Shown here: in pieces, positions 54,900-61,196 of the stretch
Position numbering within the stretch: position 1 is the stretch's first letter
Layout: each line of letters starts with the position of its first letter
Assembly (NCBI RefSeq): GCF_005405005.1
Contig: NZ_BJDH01000002.1
Coordinates: forward strand, 310,001-374,000
Direction: 5' to 3'
DNA from: Lactiplantibacillus daoliensis
GTDB taxonomy: Bacteria; Bacillota; Bacilli; Lactobacillales; Lactobacillaceae
Length of the DNA: 64,000 bases
Translations under genes and position numbers: made by a program
Notes under the pieces: generated by a model
Told to the model about the DNA's origin: nothing
Seen by the model: the letters and a program-made list of their open reading frames with translations, nothing else
Databases searched by the model: none

Positions 54900-55365
54900 T
54901 TTGTTCAGCCTCCTGCCGTTGTTGTTGCCGAAAGTTAAGTACCGCGTGCTGAATTTTCTCATCTTGTAGTCCTAATATTTGTGCAGCCATTAAGGCGGCA
55001 TTTTTCGCACCAGCTTCACCAATCGCCATCGTTGCGACTGGCACACCGGCAGGCATCTGAACAATCGATAGTAAGGAATCAACGCCGTTAAGTACGCGCG
55101 TTTTAATTGGCACACCAATGACTGGTAACAACGTATTGGCAGCTAACATGCCTGGCAAGTGGGCAGCACCACCCGCGCCTGCAATAATTAATTGCAACCC
55201 GCGTTGGGCAGCTTCTTCACCGTATATTTGTAAGGTTGCCGGCATTCGATGTGCTGAAATCACTCGGCGCTCATAATCAATGCCAAGCATTGTGAGTTGC
55301 TGAGCAGCTAATTGCATCGTCGGCCAATCTGAAATTGACCCCATCACTAAACCAACTTTCGCCAT
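54883..55365 (-). CDS. purE: N5-carboxyaminoimidazole ribonucleotide mutase
   Basis: A 160-residue class I PurE, converting N5-CAIR to [14 protein letters not shown] (8-17) and [12 protein letters not shown] (about 68-79) are the substrate-binding motifs. It is the first gene of the eleven-gene purine operon. PurB, PurA and GuaAB are not in the window. Confidence 0.97.
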
Positions 55366-55395
55366 CTCAATCCTTCTTTCTTTGTTTTCATCATA

Positions 55396-55424
55396 AGTTT
55401 AACAACCTCGTTAGTTACTGTCAA
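55396..55424 (-). promoter_or_regulatory. Promoter of the pur operon
   Basis: A perfect TTGACA and TAAACT with a 17-base spacer on the minus strand, about 30 bp upstream of the purE start. A PurBox-like site lies 36 bp farther upstream. Confidence 0.8.
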
Positions 55425-55459
55425 CGAATTTCTTAACTTTATCTATTAATTAACGTTTT

Positions 55460-55472
55460 AATGTTCGTGTTA
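55460..55472 (-). promoter_or_regulatory. PurBox-like site upstream of the pur promoter
   Basis: AATGTTCGTGTTA on the plus strand; its complement has the CGAACATT core of the PurR box and matches about 10 of 13 consensus positions. Confidence 0.5.
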
Positions 55473-55536
55473 TTTAAAAACAGTCTTAATCATCTCTAGC
55501 TTAACATTATTAAATTAATATCTGTTTTGTCAGCAT

Positions 55537-55549
55537 TTTGTTCGGTTAC
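55537..55549 (-). promoter_or_regulatory. PurBox-like site
   Basis: TTTGTTCGGTTAC; the complement GTAACCGAACAAA matches about 11 of 13 positions of AWWWCCGAACWWT. Confidence 0.5.
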
Positions 55550-55603
55550 CGGCCAAATGAACAGTTAGAGAACGTTTATCGGGTATAAATAGATTTATCA
55601 TTA

Positions 55604-55616
55604 AATTCCGAACTTT
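55604..55616 (+). promoter_or_regulatory. PurBox, full consensus match
   Basis: AATTCCGAACTTT fits every position of the PurR box consensus AWWWCCGAACWWT. It lies roughly midway between purE and the small divergent membrane protein gene. Confidence 0.6.
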
Positions 55617-55748
55617 GTAAATTTCAGCACCAATTGGTATTTTTAATACTGAATTCGCCAACCACTGAGTTTAAGTTAACTAACATCATTTGAACGGAAA
55701 GCCCACACAAATCAGCCAAAAACCGATATTTTCGATTTACAGCGGCTT

Positions 55749-55761
55749 AAAACCGAACTAA
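55749..55761 (+). promoter_or_regulatory. PurBox-like site before the small membrane protein gene
   Basis: AAAACCGAACTAA matches 12 of 13 PurR box positions, 58 bp upstream of the small gene's start codon. Confidence 0.5.
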
Positions 55762-55818
55762 ACTGCGGATGTTTCATTAAATCATACACACCAGCCTTAC
55801 GCTAAAGGGGGCACAATC

Positions 55819-56013
55819 ATGCAATTTAAGCATCCAGTAACCTTTTATCGCTCCATCGCCTTTTGGTTCGGTCTCATTTTTGTTTGGGTCGCCATCTTCG
55901 GTTTTCCAAAAACAATGGTAACCGTTGGGGATATCTTCACGTATCCAATTATTTTCATCATTGCTATCGCTAGCATTCTCTCCGCCATCTTCCAAAAGAA
56001 AAAGAAGTATTAA
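55819..56013 (+). CDS. Small two-helix membrane protein of unknown function
   Basis: A 64-residue protein with two hydrophobic segments (about residues 10-28 and 36-55) and a basic end (QKKKKY). I do not recognise it. AAGGGGG seven bases before the ATG and a hairpin after the stop support real expression. It is divergent from the purine operon, and three PurBox-like sites lie in the shared upstream region, so it may be purine-controlled. It is too short for a transporter by itself; a regulator of a membrane complex is possible but is only a guess. Confidence 0.65.
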   Translation: MQFKHPVTFYRSIAFWFGLIFVWVAIFGFPKTMVTVGDIFTYPIIFIIAIASILSAIFQKKKKY

Positions 56014-56027
56014 CCGATTAGACACCA

Positions 56028-56066
56028 AAACAGGCAGGCAACCCTCATCGGTTACCTGCCTGCTTT
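56028..56066 (+). terminator. Terminator-like hairpin after the small membrane protein gene
   Basis: Stem of AGGCAGG-ACC with GGT-CCTGCCT, with a weak T tract. Confidence 0.6.
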
Positions 56067-56092
56067 ATAAACATAATTCTTACTCATCAATG

Positions 56093-56421
56093 CCGCCTAC
56101 CGGTTGGCCTGAAATCGGCTGGAACGTGATGGCCACATTTGGAAGCCAAGGTACGGTCTTCCAAGCCGGGCTTTATCTAAGACGGAAAATCACCGTCCAA
56201 GATAAACAACACCACTGAGCCAATTTCAGACCGCCCGACGCTAAACTTGCCTTCTAATCTGTGTTTAGCCGAGAGGTTGGAAACTAAAATGCTCAGCCAT
56301 GAAATTGGTCTTAGCGCGGGTGCTTTTCCCGCACTTAGACCAAGGTCGGCTTTGGAGACCGCCCTTTGGCTCCAAAACGGCCCATGGCGTTCCAGTATTT
56401 TAGTTTTCAACCGGTAGGCGG
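56093..56421. repeat. Structured intergenic repeat, family 2 (~329 bp)
   Basis: The ends are a perfect 14-bp inverted repeat, CCGCCTACCGGTTG and CAACCGGTAGGCGG. Inside are several strong hairpins, including TTATCT-GACGG/CCGTC-AGATAA (near 56170-56205) and TGGTCTTAG-CGGG/CCCG-CTTAGACCA (near 56305-56345), and an inner inverted pair GGTTGGAAACTAAAAT/ATTTTAGTTTTCAACC. No open frame is credible. It lies between convergent genes. The same terminal sequence is at 8878. It is MITE-like in build. Confidence 0.75.
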
Positions 56422-56440
56422 AAAATTAAACAAGTTCAAC

Positions 56441-57748
56441 TCAGTTATCGTTGCCAGAAGCACCTGAAATACTGTCTACTTCCGGTTCGACTGGTTCGGG
56501 ATCCGCTGACGCACCGGATACTTCATCCGGTTGTTCAGGCACAGCATCTGCCGAGGCACCCGACACACTGTCTGGCTTGGTATCAGCACTTTTAGCAGAC
56601 GCACCTGAAATGGCATCCGCTTTCGCATTCGGATCTTTGGCCAACACTTGACCGGTATGTGCTAAATAGTATTTAACGATTGGCAAAATATCGAGGACAA
56701 ATTCATTAATCCCTTTATAATCCCCTTTGGCATCATGCATGGCTTGATAATAATGCATAATGTACTTTTCGGGTCCATTTCCTGGTACAGGTAACTTGAA
56801 CAAATCCGTCTTACCCGTGCGCAACATATGAATCACTTGTTGTACATGTGGAATAGCCCGCTTTGGATGACAATCAGCCATTGGATTGCCAGCTTGAGCT
56901 GGGGTCCGAGCAGCCATCATATCTTTAGCTTCCGCATTGTGATTATAGTAAATAAATTGATTATTCGCATCGGCATACGTTAATTCCATCGGCATCGAAT
57001 TCAAGAAATAATTCAATTGATTAACGGTCAAAACACCCCGATCCAGCTTGACGTAGTCGTCACCGGTCGCTGCATTCGTTTTAGCCGCAGCTTGTTCGAC
57101 CCAATCAGCCGCGTGCATATTCACGCCTTCAATCGTCGTTTCAACTTTGCCATGTGCTTCCAAATCTTCTGACTTCCAGCTATCGTCTTCGGCTGGGCCA
57201 TTCATCGTATTGATCACTTTGACAAATTTAACGAACTTTTCAAGCGTTTCCTTTAAAAAGCTAACTGTACGTGCATCTTTTAAATTATGCTGATCATCAA
57301 ACGCCTCTTTAACTTCACCTAATAAGAATTCGTTTCCCGGCATGACAATCGCATCGACACCTGGTGATTCCAAAATCTGGCGTAAGTTCAACTGTGCACG
57401 TGAAGAGCCTTGGTCGTAGTATGAAGCACCAACAATCATCACTGGCTTGCCAGACAGTGGATGAATCTTAAAAGATAGCCATTCAATGACACTCTTTAAC
57501 GCTGCGGTAATCGTATGATTGTGCTCTGGTGTGGCAATGATCACACCGTCTGCTTGTTTGATTTTATGACTGAGATACTGGACCGCGTCACTATCCGTCT
57601 GGTCATCACTTTGATTAAACATCGGCACATCTTGAATATCCAAAATTTCAACATCCACCGTGTCACTAAAATGTGTCGCAATGAATTTTAATAACAGCCG
57701 GTTGTATGATTTATCAGCAACAGAACCGGCAATTCCAACTAATTTCAT
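56441..57748 (-). CDS. NAD(P)H-dependent FMN reductase-PAS fusion with four flavinylation motifs
   Basis: A 435-residue cytosolic protein with three parts. Residues 1-180 are an NADPH-dependent FMN reductase domain ([34 protein letters not shown] and [13 protein letters not shown] are the flavin-binding motifs). Residues ~235-365 look like the PAS-type domain of DUF438 proteins ([18 protein letters not shown], ..[15 protein letters not shown]..). The acidic, Pro/Ala-rich tail carries DAISGAS, DSVSGAS, DEVSGAS and DSISGAS at residues 378, 393, 408 and 425. D-x-x-S/T-G-A-S/T is the site where ApbE attaches FMN to the last Ser/Thr. No signal peptide is present. It follows the shorter paralogue by 15 bp. 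No apbE is in the window. Confidence 0.88.
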
Positions 57749-57763
57749 GTCAAAAACTCCTCT

Positions 57764-58372
57764 CTAAAGCTTGTCCCAATTCACATTCTGAACTTCTTTT
57801 CGGTTAGCTTCATTGGCGTGATTCAATTCAGCCGTAATATCAACGAACGTTTGAAAATCTGTGAATAGCCCAGTCAATTTCGCCAATTTTTGCTCATCCA
57901 CCAAATTACCATCGGCATCAAAAGCTTGTAACGAGTGCCCTAATAAGAATTCTGAACTAGGCATGATTCGTGCTCGCAATTCTGGTGAGTCCAAAATCTG
58001 ACGTAAATGTGCCTGAGCACGCGACGTGCCTAATGAGCCGTATGACGCCCCAATAATCATGACCGGCTTATCCACAAAGGGATGAATATGAAATGACAAC
58101 CACTCCAGCGCATTCATTAAAACCGCTGGTGCCGAATGATCATACTCGGGAGTGCTAATAATCACGCCATCCGCTTGGTCAATTTTTTCAGCAATCGCGG
58201 TGGCTGCCGCTGGAACTTGTTTATTTTCTGGCTTATTAAACATCGGTAAATCTTTAATTTCAACCAGTTCAATCGTTGCTTGCGCCGCAAAATGTTTTTG
58301 CATGAATTGTAATAACGTTCGATTCGTCGATTCATCTGAATTGGTCCCGACGATGGCAATAAACTTGTGCAT
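57764..58372 (-). CDS. NAD(P)H-dependent FMN reductase
   Basis: A 202-residue flavodoxin-fold reductase, clearly a paralogue of the first domain of the next gene (GTNSDESTNRTLLQF, STPEYDHSAPAVLMNALEWLSFHIHPF and GASYGSLGTSRAQAHLR align with it). It uses NAD(P)H to reduce FMN or quinone-like acceptors. ATG 58372 follows GGAG by nine bases; the TTG two codons before is on the edge of that site. It is the first gene of a two-gene operon whose promoter overlaps a cre site, so expression should drop on preferred sugars. Confidence 0.88.
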   Translation of the reverse strand: MHKFIAIVGTNSDESTNRTLLQFMQKHFAAQATIELVEIKDLPMFNKPENKQVPAAATAIAEKIDQADGVIISTPEYDHSAPAVLMNALEWLSFHIHPFVDKPVMIIGASYGSLGTSRAQAHLRQILDSPELRARIMPSSEFLLGHSLQAFDADGNLVDEQKLAKLTGLFTDFQTFVDITAELNHANEANRKEVQNVNWDKL

Positions 58373-58435
58373 TTTCAAGAACTCCTTTTTAACGGCCTAA
58401 TTGCTGCTTGATATAAAATAGTTATCGTTAATGAT

Positions 58436-58464
58436 ATTGTAAACGATTTCACGAATTAAATCAA
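58436..58464 (-). promoter_or_regulatory. Promoter of the FMN reductase operon
   Basis: TTGATT and TACAAT with a 17-base spacer on the minus strand, about 60 bp upstream of the start codon. Confidence 0.8.
58438..58451. promoter_or_regulatory. cre site (CcpA operator) over the FMN reductase promoter
   Basis: TGTAAACGATTTCA fits the catabolite-responsive element consensus TGWAANCGNTNWCA at every defined position. It covers the -10 element and part of the spacer, where CcpA binding represses. Confidence 0.8.
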
Positions 58465-58496
58465 AGTAAGTTTAACTTCATTATCAACGCTTTTTC

Positions 58497-58530
58497 AAAA
58501 AAAGATTGCCAACAACGACAATCTTTTTTT
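58497..58530 (-). terminator. Terminator after lplA
   Basis: Stem AAAAAAAGATTG/CAATCTTTTTTT around a short loop, just after the lplA stop codon. Confidence 0.9.
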
Positions 58531-58536
58531 AGGTCA

Positions 58537-59562
58537 CTATTTAGTTGTTTCACCTTGTTCAACTAACAAGCTAATCAACTCATTACGATCAATTTGTCCA
58601 AAATACAACTGTAAGTCCAGATCCGCCAGAGCTGCGGTCACAGCCGTGCGAGTATATTTAACCCCTTTTAGCCGATCTAGGACCGTTTGAACAGGTTGTG
58701 AACCGAAGAAGTCACCGTAAACTGTCAAATCCGCAATTCGACCGTTGGCGATATTGAGTCTAAAATCAACCGTACCAGCCGTAAAATGCCGCCGATGCTG
58801 GATTTCAAAGGCTGGCGATTGACCATAAATCCAATCCCAATTTTTGAAGTAACGCTGATTTAAGTCAGCCACTCCGGCTCGAATCGTATCATCTAACGGA
58901 TAGGTCTTCGCGTCGGCTAAATCGGACACACCTAAAATTTCACGAGCTAACCGATCTCTGAATTCCTCAATCGTTAAGTTCTGATAGGCCGGTGCCAAGT
59001 ACGGCCGCAAGTTAGTCACCCGACTACGCACCGATTTGATACCTTTAGAGGCCATTTTATCTGCCGGCACAGTTAAGGCCTTAGCAATCTGAGACTGATC
59101 CACATCATACATCAACGTGCCATGTGAAAACATCCGACCATTTTCCACATGCATCGCATTGCCAGAAAACTTTTTACCATCGATCAGCAAATCGTTGCGA
59201 CCGCTCATCTCGGCCCCAGTCGCGCCCATCGCATGCAATGCCTTGAGTACTGGTGCCGTGAAACGCTTGAAATTGCCAAAGCCGTCACCATCATCTTTAG
59301 TGATGAAGCTAAAACTGACATTCCCAAGATCATCAAAGACCGCACCACCACCAGAGGTTCGGCGCGTCAAAATAATCTTTTGCTGCTCAACATACGCCTG
59401 ATTAATTTCGGCCAACACATTTTGGTAGCGGCCGACAATAATACAAGGTGAATTGATATAGAAGTATAAAATTGGTTCGGATAAATCGGCATGAGCCATT
59501 AGATAAGTTTCAATGGCTAAGTTCGTCCGAATATCGTGACTAGGACTAGTTAAATAACGCAT
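58537..59562 (-). CDS. lplA: Lipoate-protein ligase A
   Basis: A 341-residue ligase attaching lipoate to the E2 and H subunits of 2-oxoacid complexes through lipoyl-AMP. RRTSGGGAVFDDLGN (about 68-82) and SGRNDLLIDGKKFSGNA (about 118) are the lipoate/ATP motifs; a C-terminal accessory domain is present. It follows the phosphatase gene by 15 bp. Its substrate genes are not in the window. Confidence 0.94.
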   Translation of the reverse strand: MRYLTSPSHDIRTNLAIETYLMAHADLSEPILYFYINSPCIIVGRYQNVLAEINQAYVEQQKIILTRRTSGGGAVFDDLGNVSFSFITKDDGDGFGNFKRFTAPVLKALHAMGATGAEMSGRNDLLIDGKKFSGNAMHVENGRMFSHGTLMYDVDQSQIAKALTVPADKMASKGIKSVRSRVTNLRPYLAPAYQNLTIEEFRDRLAREILGVSDLADAKTYPLDDTIRAGVADLNQRYFKNWDWIYGQSPAFEIQHRRHFTAGTVDFRLNIANGRIADLTVYGDFFGSQPVQTVLDRLKGVKYTRTAVTAALADLDLQLYFGQIDRNELISLLVEQGETTK

Positions 59563-59577
59563 GCTGTCACTTCCTGA

Positions 59578-60369
59578 TTAATCTAAATATAACTCGCGTA
59601 ATCGTAAAATTTCTGTTTTAGTTAACTTTAATTCAGTCCGCAAATAATGTTCAATATTACCGGATTGATGTTTGATTTCTGAGAGAGCCGTGTCTAAATA
59701 GTCATTATCAACTGACCAGAGTGCGCGAATACTTTCTACCGTCTCAGCACTGACACCTTGTTTTTTGGCATCCGCCACCACGCTGTCAATTCGTTCGGCA
59801 GAAGCTGAGTTAGTTAATAAATAATCGGCCCGAATCGTTTCAAGGTCAACACCCAGTGCCGTTAACAAATATACTGCCCCCATCCCTGTCCGGTCTTTAC
59901 CGGCAGTACAATGGAACAAGAGCGATTCACCTGGTTGGTCATTGGCTAATAAAGCGTCAAAGAACCGGCGATATTCGCGCTTGGCATGATTTTCAGTCAC
60001 GACCATTCGATAAACCTTGAGCATGTGACGATAACCACTATCTGGATGATTTTCAAGATCCGCCGCCATTTTGTCAGTGCCGTCAGAGTTCTTGGTTTCA
60101 TCTACGTTAAAAACGGGTGCATATAAGTATTTGGCCCGACCAGGAACTCGGTCAGGTGTATCTAAAACTTCTTGTGGTGACCGGAAATCCACATCGTAAC
60201 GAACACCGTACTCGTCCAAAAATTTCAAATCTGCTTGTGTTAAACGATCTAAGCCGCCACTCCGAAGCAATTTATGCCATTTGATATGATGACCATCTTT
60301 CGTTGCATAGCCACCTAGTTCGCGAAAATTAAAGCCTTGTTGAATTGGTAATAATCGTTCATTTGCCAT
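59578..60369 (-). CDS. Protein-tyrosine/serine phosphatase family protein
   Basis: A 263-residue dual-specificity-like phosphatase of the bacterial family with an N-terminal GFNFRELGGYAT motif (about 13-24) and the active loop HCTAGKDRTGMG (about 155-166). Cys, Arg and the loop aspartates are in place. Members act on phosphoproteins or phosphoinositides; the physiological substrate is unknown. ATG 60369 is chosen over a GTG four codons earlier. It is cotranscribed with lplA, without an obvious functional link. Confidence 0.88.
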   Translation of the reverse strand: MANERLLPIQQGFNFRELGGYATKDGHHIKWHKLLRSGGLDRLTQADLKFLDEYGVRYDVDFRSPQEVLDTPDRVPGRAKYLYAPVFNVDETKNSDGTDKMAADLENHPDSGYRHMLKVYRMVVTENHAKREYRRFFDALLANDQPGESLLFHCTAGKDRTGMGAVYLLTALGVDLETIRADYLLTNSASAERIDSVVADAKKQGVSAETVESIRALWSVDNDYLDTALSEIKHQSGNIEHYLRTELKLTKTEILRLRELYLD

Positions 60370-60557
60370 GAGTCCTGCCACCTATTCTATGAATTTAACG
60401 ACGAACTGACGTGTTTGATTGCTTGTTAGTCCGTCTAAGCTACTTTCTATTCTAACATTGTGACGCACGTGATTTGATAAAAAGATTCATCATTAATTGA
60501 CAAAGTCGGCCACCGTGAGAAAATAGAGAGTAAGACATCATTTACGGAGGTTTTTTC

Positions 60558-61196
60558 ATGACGACATTAGACTATTCAACCCAAGCTGACTGGCAATCCG
60601 TCGGCGGCAATCAGCAATCCCCAATTAATATTGAAACCGCCAACACCACTGCTTCACAATTATCTGCCATCAGTTGGCGTGGCTTGTACCAAGCAAAAAC
60701 GATTATCGGTACCGACACAACGCTAGAAGCAACTGGTACTGGCATGGCCTATTTAAATGACCGTGATTTCAACTTTGATCAAATTCATTTTCATACCCCG
60801 GCCGAACATTTAATTGACGGGCAGGCCGCGCCAATTGAATGGCATCTCGTCCATCGCAGTGCAACCGGACAGCTTGCAGTCGTCGCTATTTTTGGTCGCA
60901 TCGGCAAGCCCAATGCTAGTTTCCAAGGATTATTGGATCAATTTACGCCAGCCACTAGCCATGCGTTAACTGAACCAATTAACCTAACCGAACTATTGCC
61001 CGACACCGGTACCGTTTACCACTACCTTGGCTCATTAACCACGCCACCATTGACCGAGACCGTTGAATGGTATATCTGCGCGGATTCGGTCATGATTGGT
61101 GAAAAACAATTAGCCGCTTACCAAAACTTATTTGGTCCTAATAACCGCCAAGTTCAGCCTTTAAACGACCGCCCAATTATCGCTGAACGGCTCTAA
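60558..61196 (+). CDS. cah: Alpha-class carbonic anhydrase
   Basis: A 212-residue alpha carbonic anhydrase, hydrating CO2 to bicarbonate. QQSPINIE (about 19-26), the zinc ligands in QIHFHTPAEH (two His) and EWHLVHR (third His), and LTTPPLTETVEW are all present. Most bacterial alpha types are exported, but this protein begins directly with the domain and has no signal peptide. Bicarbonate supply fits the neighbourhood: carbamoyl-phosphate synthase and PurK use it. The DUF915 gene follows by 18 bp. Confidence 0.94.
   Translation: MTTLDYSTQADWQSVGGNQQSPINIETANTTASQLSAISWRGLYQAKTIIGTDTTLEATGTGMAYLNDRDFNFDQIHFHTPAEHLIDGQAAPIEWHLVHRSATGQLAVVAIFGRIGKPNASFQGLLDQFTPATSHALTEPINLTELLPDTGTVYHYLGSLTTPPLTETVEWYICADSVMIGEKQLAAYQNLFGPNNRQVQPLNDRPIIAERL

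Follow-up and report, generated by a model that had tools for sequence, protein, structure and literature searches.

To date, flavinylation by ApbE has mostly been discussed for extracytosolic electron transfer. The described proteins closest to the one analyzed here are two Lactococcus FMN_red proteins (WP_021723379.1 and WP_205872264.1), whose C-terminal extensions are flavinylated and lose the flavin when Ser/Thr is changed to Ala (PMC11334425, Huang et al. 2024). According to the available text of that paper, flavinylated FMN_red proteins occur mostly in Firmicutes, possess one to two ApbE motifs on an unstructured C-terminal extension, are associated with apbE and are presented under extracytosolic electron transfer; a PAS domain is not mentioned in its main text. 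Several covalent FMN groups per chain are also found in SaFMN3 and CbFMN4, which carry them in folded FMN_bind domains outside the cytosol (PMC8238504, PMC10339131; available portions), and the Klebsiella fumarate reductase represents a cytosolic substrate whose ApbE lacks a signal peptide (PMC12052999, available portion). With regard to the motif itself, the available part of a review states that a seven-residue motif placed at a terminus suffices for ApbE and that a Gly-to-Ala change roughly halves flavinylation.

A second related system is FRedA/FRedB of L. johnsonii N6.2, a heterodimeric NADH-specific FMN reductase that generates H2O2 (PMC4500961, Valladares et al. 2015; available text, here and below). 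This enzyme has two FMN sites with a KD of ~2 μM, contained 0.58 FMN per dimer as purified, shows a Km for FMN of 20 μM and forms H2O2 with free FMN in the absence of LjPAS, a separate 28-kDa PAS protein that other lactic-acid bacteria have as a fusion with FMN reductase (L. plantarum Lp2732, EF1227). LjPAS, whose expression is repressed at low oxygen, was treated as a regulator, and the purified protein slowed assembly of the active FRedA/B complex and did not speed its turnover (PMC4500961). The words "covalent" and "ApbE" are absent from the main text of that study, and the LjPAS used in its assays, having been made in E. coli, may have been unflavinylated. ApbE chemistry, the flavinylated FMN_red class and the reductase-PAS fusion with its peroxide-forming kin are already published (PMC11334425, PMC4500961), whereas a link between flavinylated FMN_red proteins and the LjPAS peroxide system, a four-site tail and a portable PAS-tail module were not found in the literature searched. 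What is new here is that LjPAS ends in the motif, that apbE lies near fredB-fredA, that the PAS-tail is portable and that it bears two to seven motif copies.

Architecture of the fusion protein and its tail

The window analyzed is a stretch of 64,000 nucleotides from Lactiplantibacillus daoliensis, in which an open reading frame on the minus strand (56441..57748, stop codon included) encodes a protein of 435 residues. Based on Pfam, fold comparison and an AlphaFold2 model built with 43 sequences, it consists of an FMN_red domain (residues 1-183, 57200..57748; Pfam match to residues 1-145 with 131 bits), a PAS_10 domain (residues 245-354, 56687..57016; 101 bits) and a disordered acidic tail rich in Ala, Ser and Pro (residues 366-435, 56444..56653), all on the minus strand. 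Both domains are modeled confidently, with a pLDDT of at least 90 for 277 of the 435 residues, and values fall below 50 at residues 378-421 and 423-435. The nearest solved folds are 1rtt and YieF/ChrR 3svl for FMN_red and 2qkp, the C-terminal domain of SMU_1151c, for PAS_10. Across the 43 sequences, the predicted FMN-pocket positions S14, F44, E75 and S109 are invariant and S9 is kept in at least 90%. Neither an FMN_bind nor a FAD_binding_2 domain was detected by Pfam (E 0.1), and the literature searched on DUF438/PAS/heme yielded only unrelated work with regard to heme or another PAS_10 ligand. A crude hydrophobicity screen, in which the best 19-residue Kyte-Doolittle mean was 1.06, revealed no export signal, in agreement with the preliminary description of this locus.

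A stand-alone FMN_red gene (204 residues, 57764..58378, minus strand) is located 15 bases upstream, giving two consecutive FMN_red genes, and its product is expected to be the FRedA-like partner of the fused FMN_red domain. No Rfam match at the gathering score was obtained across 55300-60600, where an FMN riboswitch or other known RNA was sought.

The tail contains four motifs on the minus strand: DAISGAS (residues 378-384, 56597..56617), DSVSGAS (residues 393-399, 56552..56572), DEVSGAS (residues 408-414, 56507..56527) and DSISGAS (residues 425-431, 56456..56476), with Ser384, Ser399, Ser414 and Ser431 as the respective predicted FMN acceptors, the last of which sits four residues before the C-terminus. 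The fourfold D-x-[IV]-S-G-A-S pattern with start-to-start spacing of 15, 15 and 17 residues and the four differing codon sets for SGAS had been reported correctly in the preliminary description. Its view that the motif is maintained at the protein level also held, because the 73 strict copies from 21 Lactiplantibacillus genomes vary in their codons, with four in use for each of Gly, Ala and the last Ser. When the tail (73 residues) was shuffled 200,000 times, 199,127 shuffles had no motif, 871 had one, 2 had two and none had more. Single copies do decay, as can be seen in the L. pingfangensis homologue (95% identity over the protein; the closest named relative among the best 80 of 415 loci), in which motif 3 reads DEVSAAS. 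In addition, a genome-wide DNA scan for the motif, which is only weakly specific by itself (20 matches versus 12 for the reversed pattern), recovered the four window motifs, two in a secreted FMN_bind protein and two in FMN_red fusions, and three further matches among the 11 of 20 examined were unconvincing.

Compared with the Lactococcus proteins as described in the available text of PMC11334425, the window protein likewise joins FMN_red to an unstructured extension (pLDDT below 50) with D-x-x-[ST]-G-A-[ST] motifs, but it has four of them, a PAS_10 domain and no export signal seen, and apbE lies elsewhere in its genome. It resembles SaFMN3 and CbFMN4 in having several FMN sites per chain, which here are predicted, and differs from them in that its motifs are bare and placed on a disordered cytosolic tail; of the FMN_bind domain and export signal that mark this extracytosolic multi-flavin class, Pfam and the hydrophobicity screen revealed neither. 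Klebsiella-type substrates (PMC12052999, available portion) also differ from the window protein, which lacks FMN_bind and FAD_binding_2, although two such fusions are encoded elsewhere in the same genome.

ApbE and the gene cluster among relatives

The preliminary description had proposed searching the genome for apbE, especially for a form without a signal peptide, and such a form was found. Two ApbE matches are present in the L. daoliensis genome (2.63 Mb, 19 contigs): a lipoprotein-like protein of 369 residues that adjoins a secreted protein with two FMN_bind-type motifs, and a protein of 334 residues with a full ApbE Pfam match and no evident signal. The distinction was made by the hydrophobicity screen, in which the N-terminal maximum was 0.5 for the signal-less protein versus 2.5 for the lipoprotein. 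The signal-less apbE is located on another contig, and none was found in the window neighborhood of the fusion gene. The genome has further cytosolic ApbE targets as well, since two paralogues combine FMN_red, FMN_bind with a DAISGAS motif and FAD_binding_2 in one chain. These fusions are likely NADH-driven fumarate-reductase-like enzymes of the cytosol with covalent FMN, and their layout suggests electron flow from NADH via covalent FMN to FAD. The two (L009:3188-5659 and L010:6053-8410) differ in domain order.

The same architecture, which the preliminary description suggested looking for in other genomes, was found there, mostly in Lactobacillaceae. Searching 397 Lactobacillaceae genomes with residues 1-249 gave matches at 1e-30 in 205, a figure that takes in paralogues; a search with FMN_red matched 221 of 395, a number that also includes FMN_red paralogues and is therefore not a count of the architecture. 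A long match covering FMN_red and the linker was found in 102 Lactobacillaceae genomes, all of which are among the 226 with an ApbE match. A profile built from the linker and the PAS domain matched 142 of the 397 genomes at 1e-35, and ApbE (cytosolic and secreted forms pooled) was matched in 141 of these 142 versus 85 of the 255 genomes without the PAS module; the sole exception (G261) is a genome that is 76% complete. A scan of the genomes of 84,980 species yielded 415 loci, and the best 80 of them, which were named, belong mostly to Lactobacillaceae but also to Enterococcus, Vagococcus, Carnobacteriaceae-type genera, Oceanobacillus and the actinobacterium Scardovia wiggsiae. The PAS module is not phylum-wide, since a phylum-wide draw of 299 genomes gave matches at 1e-30 in two, namely L. 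daoliensis itself and one genome of the same order.

A PAS open reading frame is present in 201 of 205 loci examined (joined to FMN_red in 192 and on its own in 9); the 201 loci are not independent, as L033-L138 and L219-L298 share species. A stand-alone FMN_red gene lies upstream in 187 of them, as it does in the window. In 87 of the 201 loci, apbE is found upstream on the same strand (76 distinct ApbE sequences), 84 times in the order apbE, small FMN_red, FMN_red-PAS-tail, the other three being separate PAS proteins of Loigolactobacillus that adjoin apbE; one of the 87 adjacent ApbE proteins exceeds the hydrophobicity threshold (L205). Plasmids of L. lactis (PLSDB) carry a Crp/Fnr regulator, apbE, FMN_red and an FMN_red-PAS protein with two DATSGAS motifs, and for this reason the published Lactococcus protein probably belongs to the family of the window protein. 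Of 112 plasmid records in which the PAS module occurs, 95 are from Enterococcus, and on one E. faecium plasmid (L346) the apbE, FMN_red and FMN_red-PAS genes are flanked by two IS1216 copies. In the three Loigolactobacillus loci (L237, L239 and L260), a protein of 583-586 residues, which by eye looks like the pyruvate-oxidase type, precedes apbE and the separate PAS-tail protein. In Leuconostoc citreum (L261), apbE, two FMN_red genes and PAS-tail are separate open reading frames, split at the point where the others are fused.

For an analysis of the motif, 165 distinct tails were obtained from 219 proteins of 385-560 residues, the start of each tail being set by a sequence pattern that marks the domain end; proteins that are shorter or truncated, stand alone or have several PAS domains lie outside this set. 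The tails contain 346 strict motifs versus 0.9 expected from shuffles. At least one strict motif is present in 134 tails, and 31 have relaxed forms only, such as DxxASAS and DxxSSAS; all 165 have two to seven copies of D-x-x-[STAG]-[GS]-A-[ST], and in 164 the last motif is followed by one to five residues. Of the 511 motif copies, 137 have Ser in place of Gly. The acceptor position is occupied by Ser in 486 copies and by Thr in 25, and the Ala before it is fixed by the search pattern. Loss of the last Ser/Thr in homologues, which the preliminary description would have counted against flavinylation, was not what we saw: this residue is conserved. The likely ApbE motif is widened by these tails to D-x-x-[STA]-[GS]-A-[ST], which bears on the prediction of ApbE substrates. 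Tails in which every motif lacks Gly at position 5 lie beside 0 of 22 "ALGT"-type and 18 of 54 other ApbE proteins, a comparison among related sequences that is uncorrected for kinship, and this restriction to non-ALGT enzymes may reflect either enzyme-substrate co-evolution or shared ancestry.

The motif is also found on stand-alone PAS proteins, of which 28 of 30 have at least one copy in the tail and most have three, under a looser definition than that used for the 165 fused tails; the two misses have GPS in place of GAS (L305) and a tail that is apparently out of frame (L312). In two proteins of 713 and 882 residues (L199 and L200), which have apbE and a small FMN_red gene upstream, FMN_red is combined with two or three PAS domains and a motif cluster follows each of them. 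Because the tail is kept on stand-alone PAS proteins and repeated after each PAS domain in multi-PAS proteins, it belongs, to judge from these sequences, to the PAS domain and not to FMN_red, and PAS-tail appears to be a portable module.

Kinship with the peroxide-forming system of L. johnsonii

Both the window and the FRedA/FRedB-LjPAS set (PMC4500961, available text) comprise a pair of adjacent FMN_red genes together with a PAS_10 protein; the last two members of the set are fused in the window, whereas the PAS protein is separate in L. johnsonii. The reverse primer published for LjPAS encodes SGASEY followed by a stop, so LjPAS itself ends in the motif, which is the motif of the window tail. 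Among the stand-alone PAS homologues found with the family profile, the LjPAS primers match each locus in part: the forward primer in L313, L314 and L315, the reverse primer in L316 and both qPCR primers in L315. One genome (G037) matches the FRedA forward primer, one of two FRedA reverse primers (the longer one has no match) and both FRedB primers, and is a putative L. johnsonii or near relative. Its fredB, fredA, a gene for a 345-residue protein, a Y_phosphatase3 gene and a gene for a signal-less ApbE of 308 residues follow one another on one strand, with fredB, fredA and apbE within 4 kb.

Possible roles of the tail

The proposal that the repeats are ApbE motifs is strongly supported by the signal-less ApbE in the genome, the apbE gene in the cluster of relatives and the kept acceptor, and on these genomic grounds it is very likely that the tail is flavinylated by a cytosolic ApbE. 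As for what the tail does, the preliminary description had electrons pass from NAD(P)H to as many as four tail flavins, and we likewise infer a relay. The window protein would make up half of a cytosolic NADH:flavin oxidoreductase, its fused FMN_red domain pairing with the stand-alone FMN_red encoded upstream in the manner of FRedA and FRedB. ApbE would esterify FMN to Ser384, Ser399, Ser414 and Ser431, giving up to four FMN groups. As the flexible tail swings, these would enter the FMN_red active site, be reduced there by NADH and, once outside, pass electrons to oxygen (yielding H2O2) or to another acceptor. The PAS domain, to which the tail belongs, would act as hinge, docking site or sensor. 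Being tethered, tail FMN would be offered as substrate at a local concentration in the millimolar range; a crude chain model gives 6-33 mM, versus the Km for FMN of 20 μM of FRedA/B (PMC4500961). Taken as a whole, we consider this explanation reasonably probable. It is favored by the signal-less ApbE, the clustered apbE genes, the co-occurrence of ApbE with the PAS module (141/142 versus 85/255), the motif excess (346 versus 0.9), the motif on stand-alone PAS proteins, the LjPAS primer, the gene cluster of the L. johnsonii-like genome, the layout of the FMN_red/FMN_bind/FAD_binding_2 fusions and the Km comparison. Against it count the position of the window genome's apbE on another contig and the 31 of 165 tails without a strict motif and, against a relay in particular, the findings that LjPAS slowed FRedA/B assembly and that FRedA/B works with free FMN alone (PMC4500961).

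The tail might instead serve to hold FMN in the two FMN_red pockets of the heterodimer and prevent its loss, with extra copies raising occupancy and no electrons passed on by the tail, which is how the available text of PMC11334425 reads its own flavinylated FMN_red proteins. The two FMN sites of FRedA/B, their KD of ~2 μM and the 0.58 FMN per purified dimer (PMC4500961) agree with such anchoring, as does the minimum of two relaxed motifs among the 165 tails; however, up to seven copies exceed the need of two pockets, and the tail follows PAS rather than FMN_red, persists where PAS stands alone and recurs after each domain of the two- or three-PAS proteins. We regard anchoring as rather unlikely. 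PAS domains commonly act as sensors, and tethered FMN and the PAS domain could jointly respond to oxygen or redox state and control the reductase, which would add a flavin to the regulatory role proposed for LjPAS. The repression of LjPAS at low oxygen and its slowing of FRedA/B assembly (PMC4500961) speak for sensing, but a sensor would hardly require a disordered tail with as many as two to seven flavin sites, and the window protein has no output domain in Pfam; this makes for an improbable account. That the tail is not flavinylated at all, its SGAS repeats being a linker or a site of some other modification, would fit the relaxed forms of 31 tails, which depart from the published motif, but it conflicts with the clustering and co-occurrence of apbE, with the sufficiency of a seven-residue motif at a terminus and with the Lactococcus FMN_red proteins, whose flavinylation is lost on Ser/Thr-to-Ala change (PMC11334425), and we give it very little credence.

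If the tail is flavinylated, there would be a large soluble cytosolic family in lactic-acid bacteria and enterococci with disordered multi-site flavin arms. A broader and tentative extension of the relay is that both the FRedA/B-LjPAS system and the fused forms are covalently flavinylated, PAS-tail being a swappable cytosolic arm that bears two to seven FMN sites and would carry electrons from an NADH reductase to oxygen or another acceptor, and that ApbE, rather than free FMN, sets the activity. The H2O2-forming reductase of probiotic lactobacilli would then be recast: LjPAS would carry electrons besides acting as a regulator, and studies of LjPAS and FRedA/B produced in E. coli would have overlooked the flavin attached to it.

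Two minor observations concern the surroundings of these genes. The window (59578-60381) and the L. johnsonii-like cluster (L338:2350-3153) each have a Y_phosphatase3 gene close to FMN_red, and such genes are found in 14 of 99 other loci. Directly downstream of the fusion gene, there is an element of ~325 bases with inverted-repeat ends (56093-56421), and 56085-56425 matches 31 places in the genome, whole and partial, which identifies it as a dispersed repeat.
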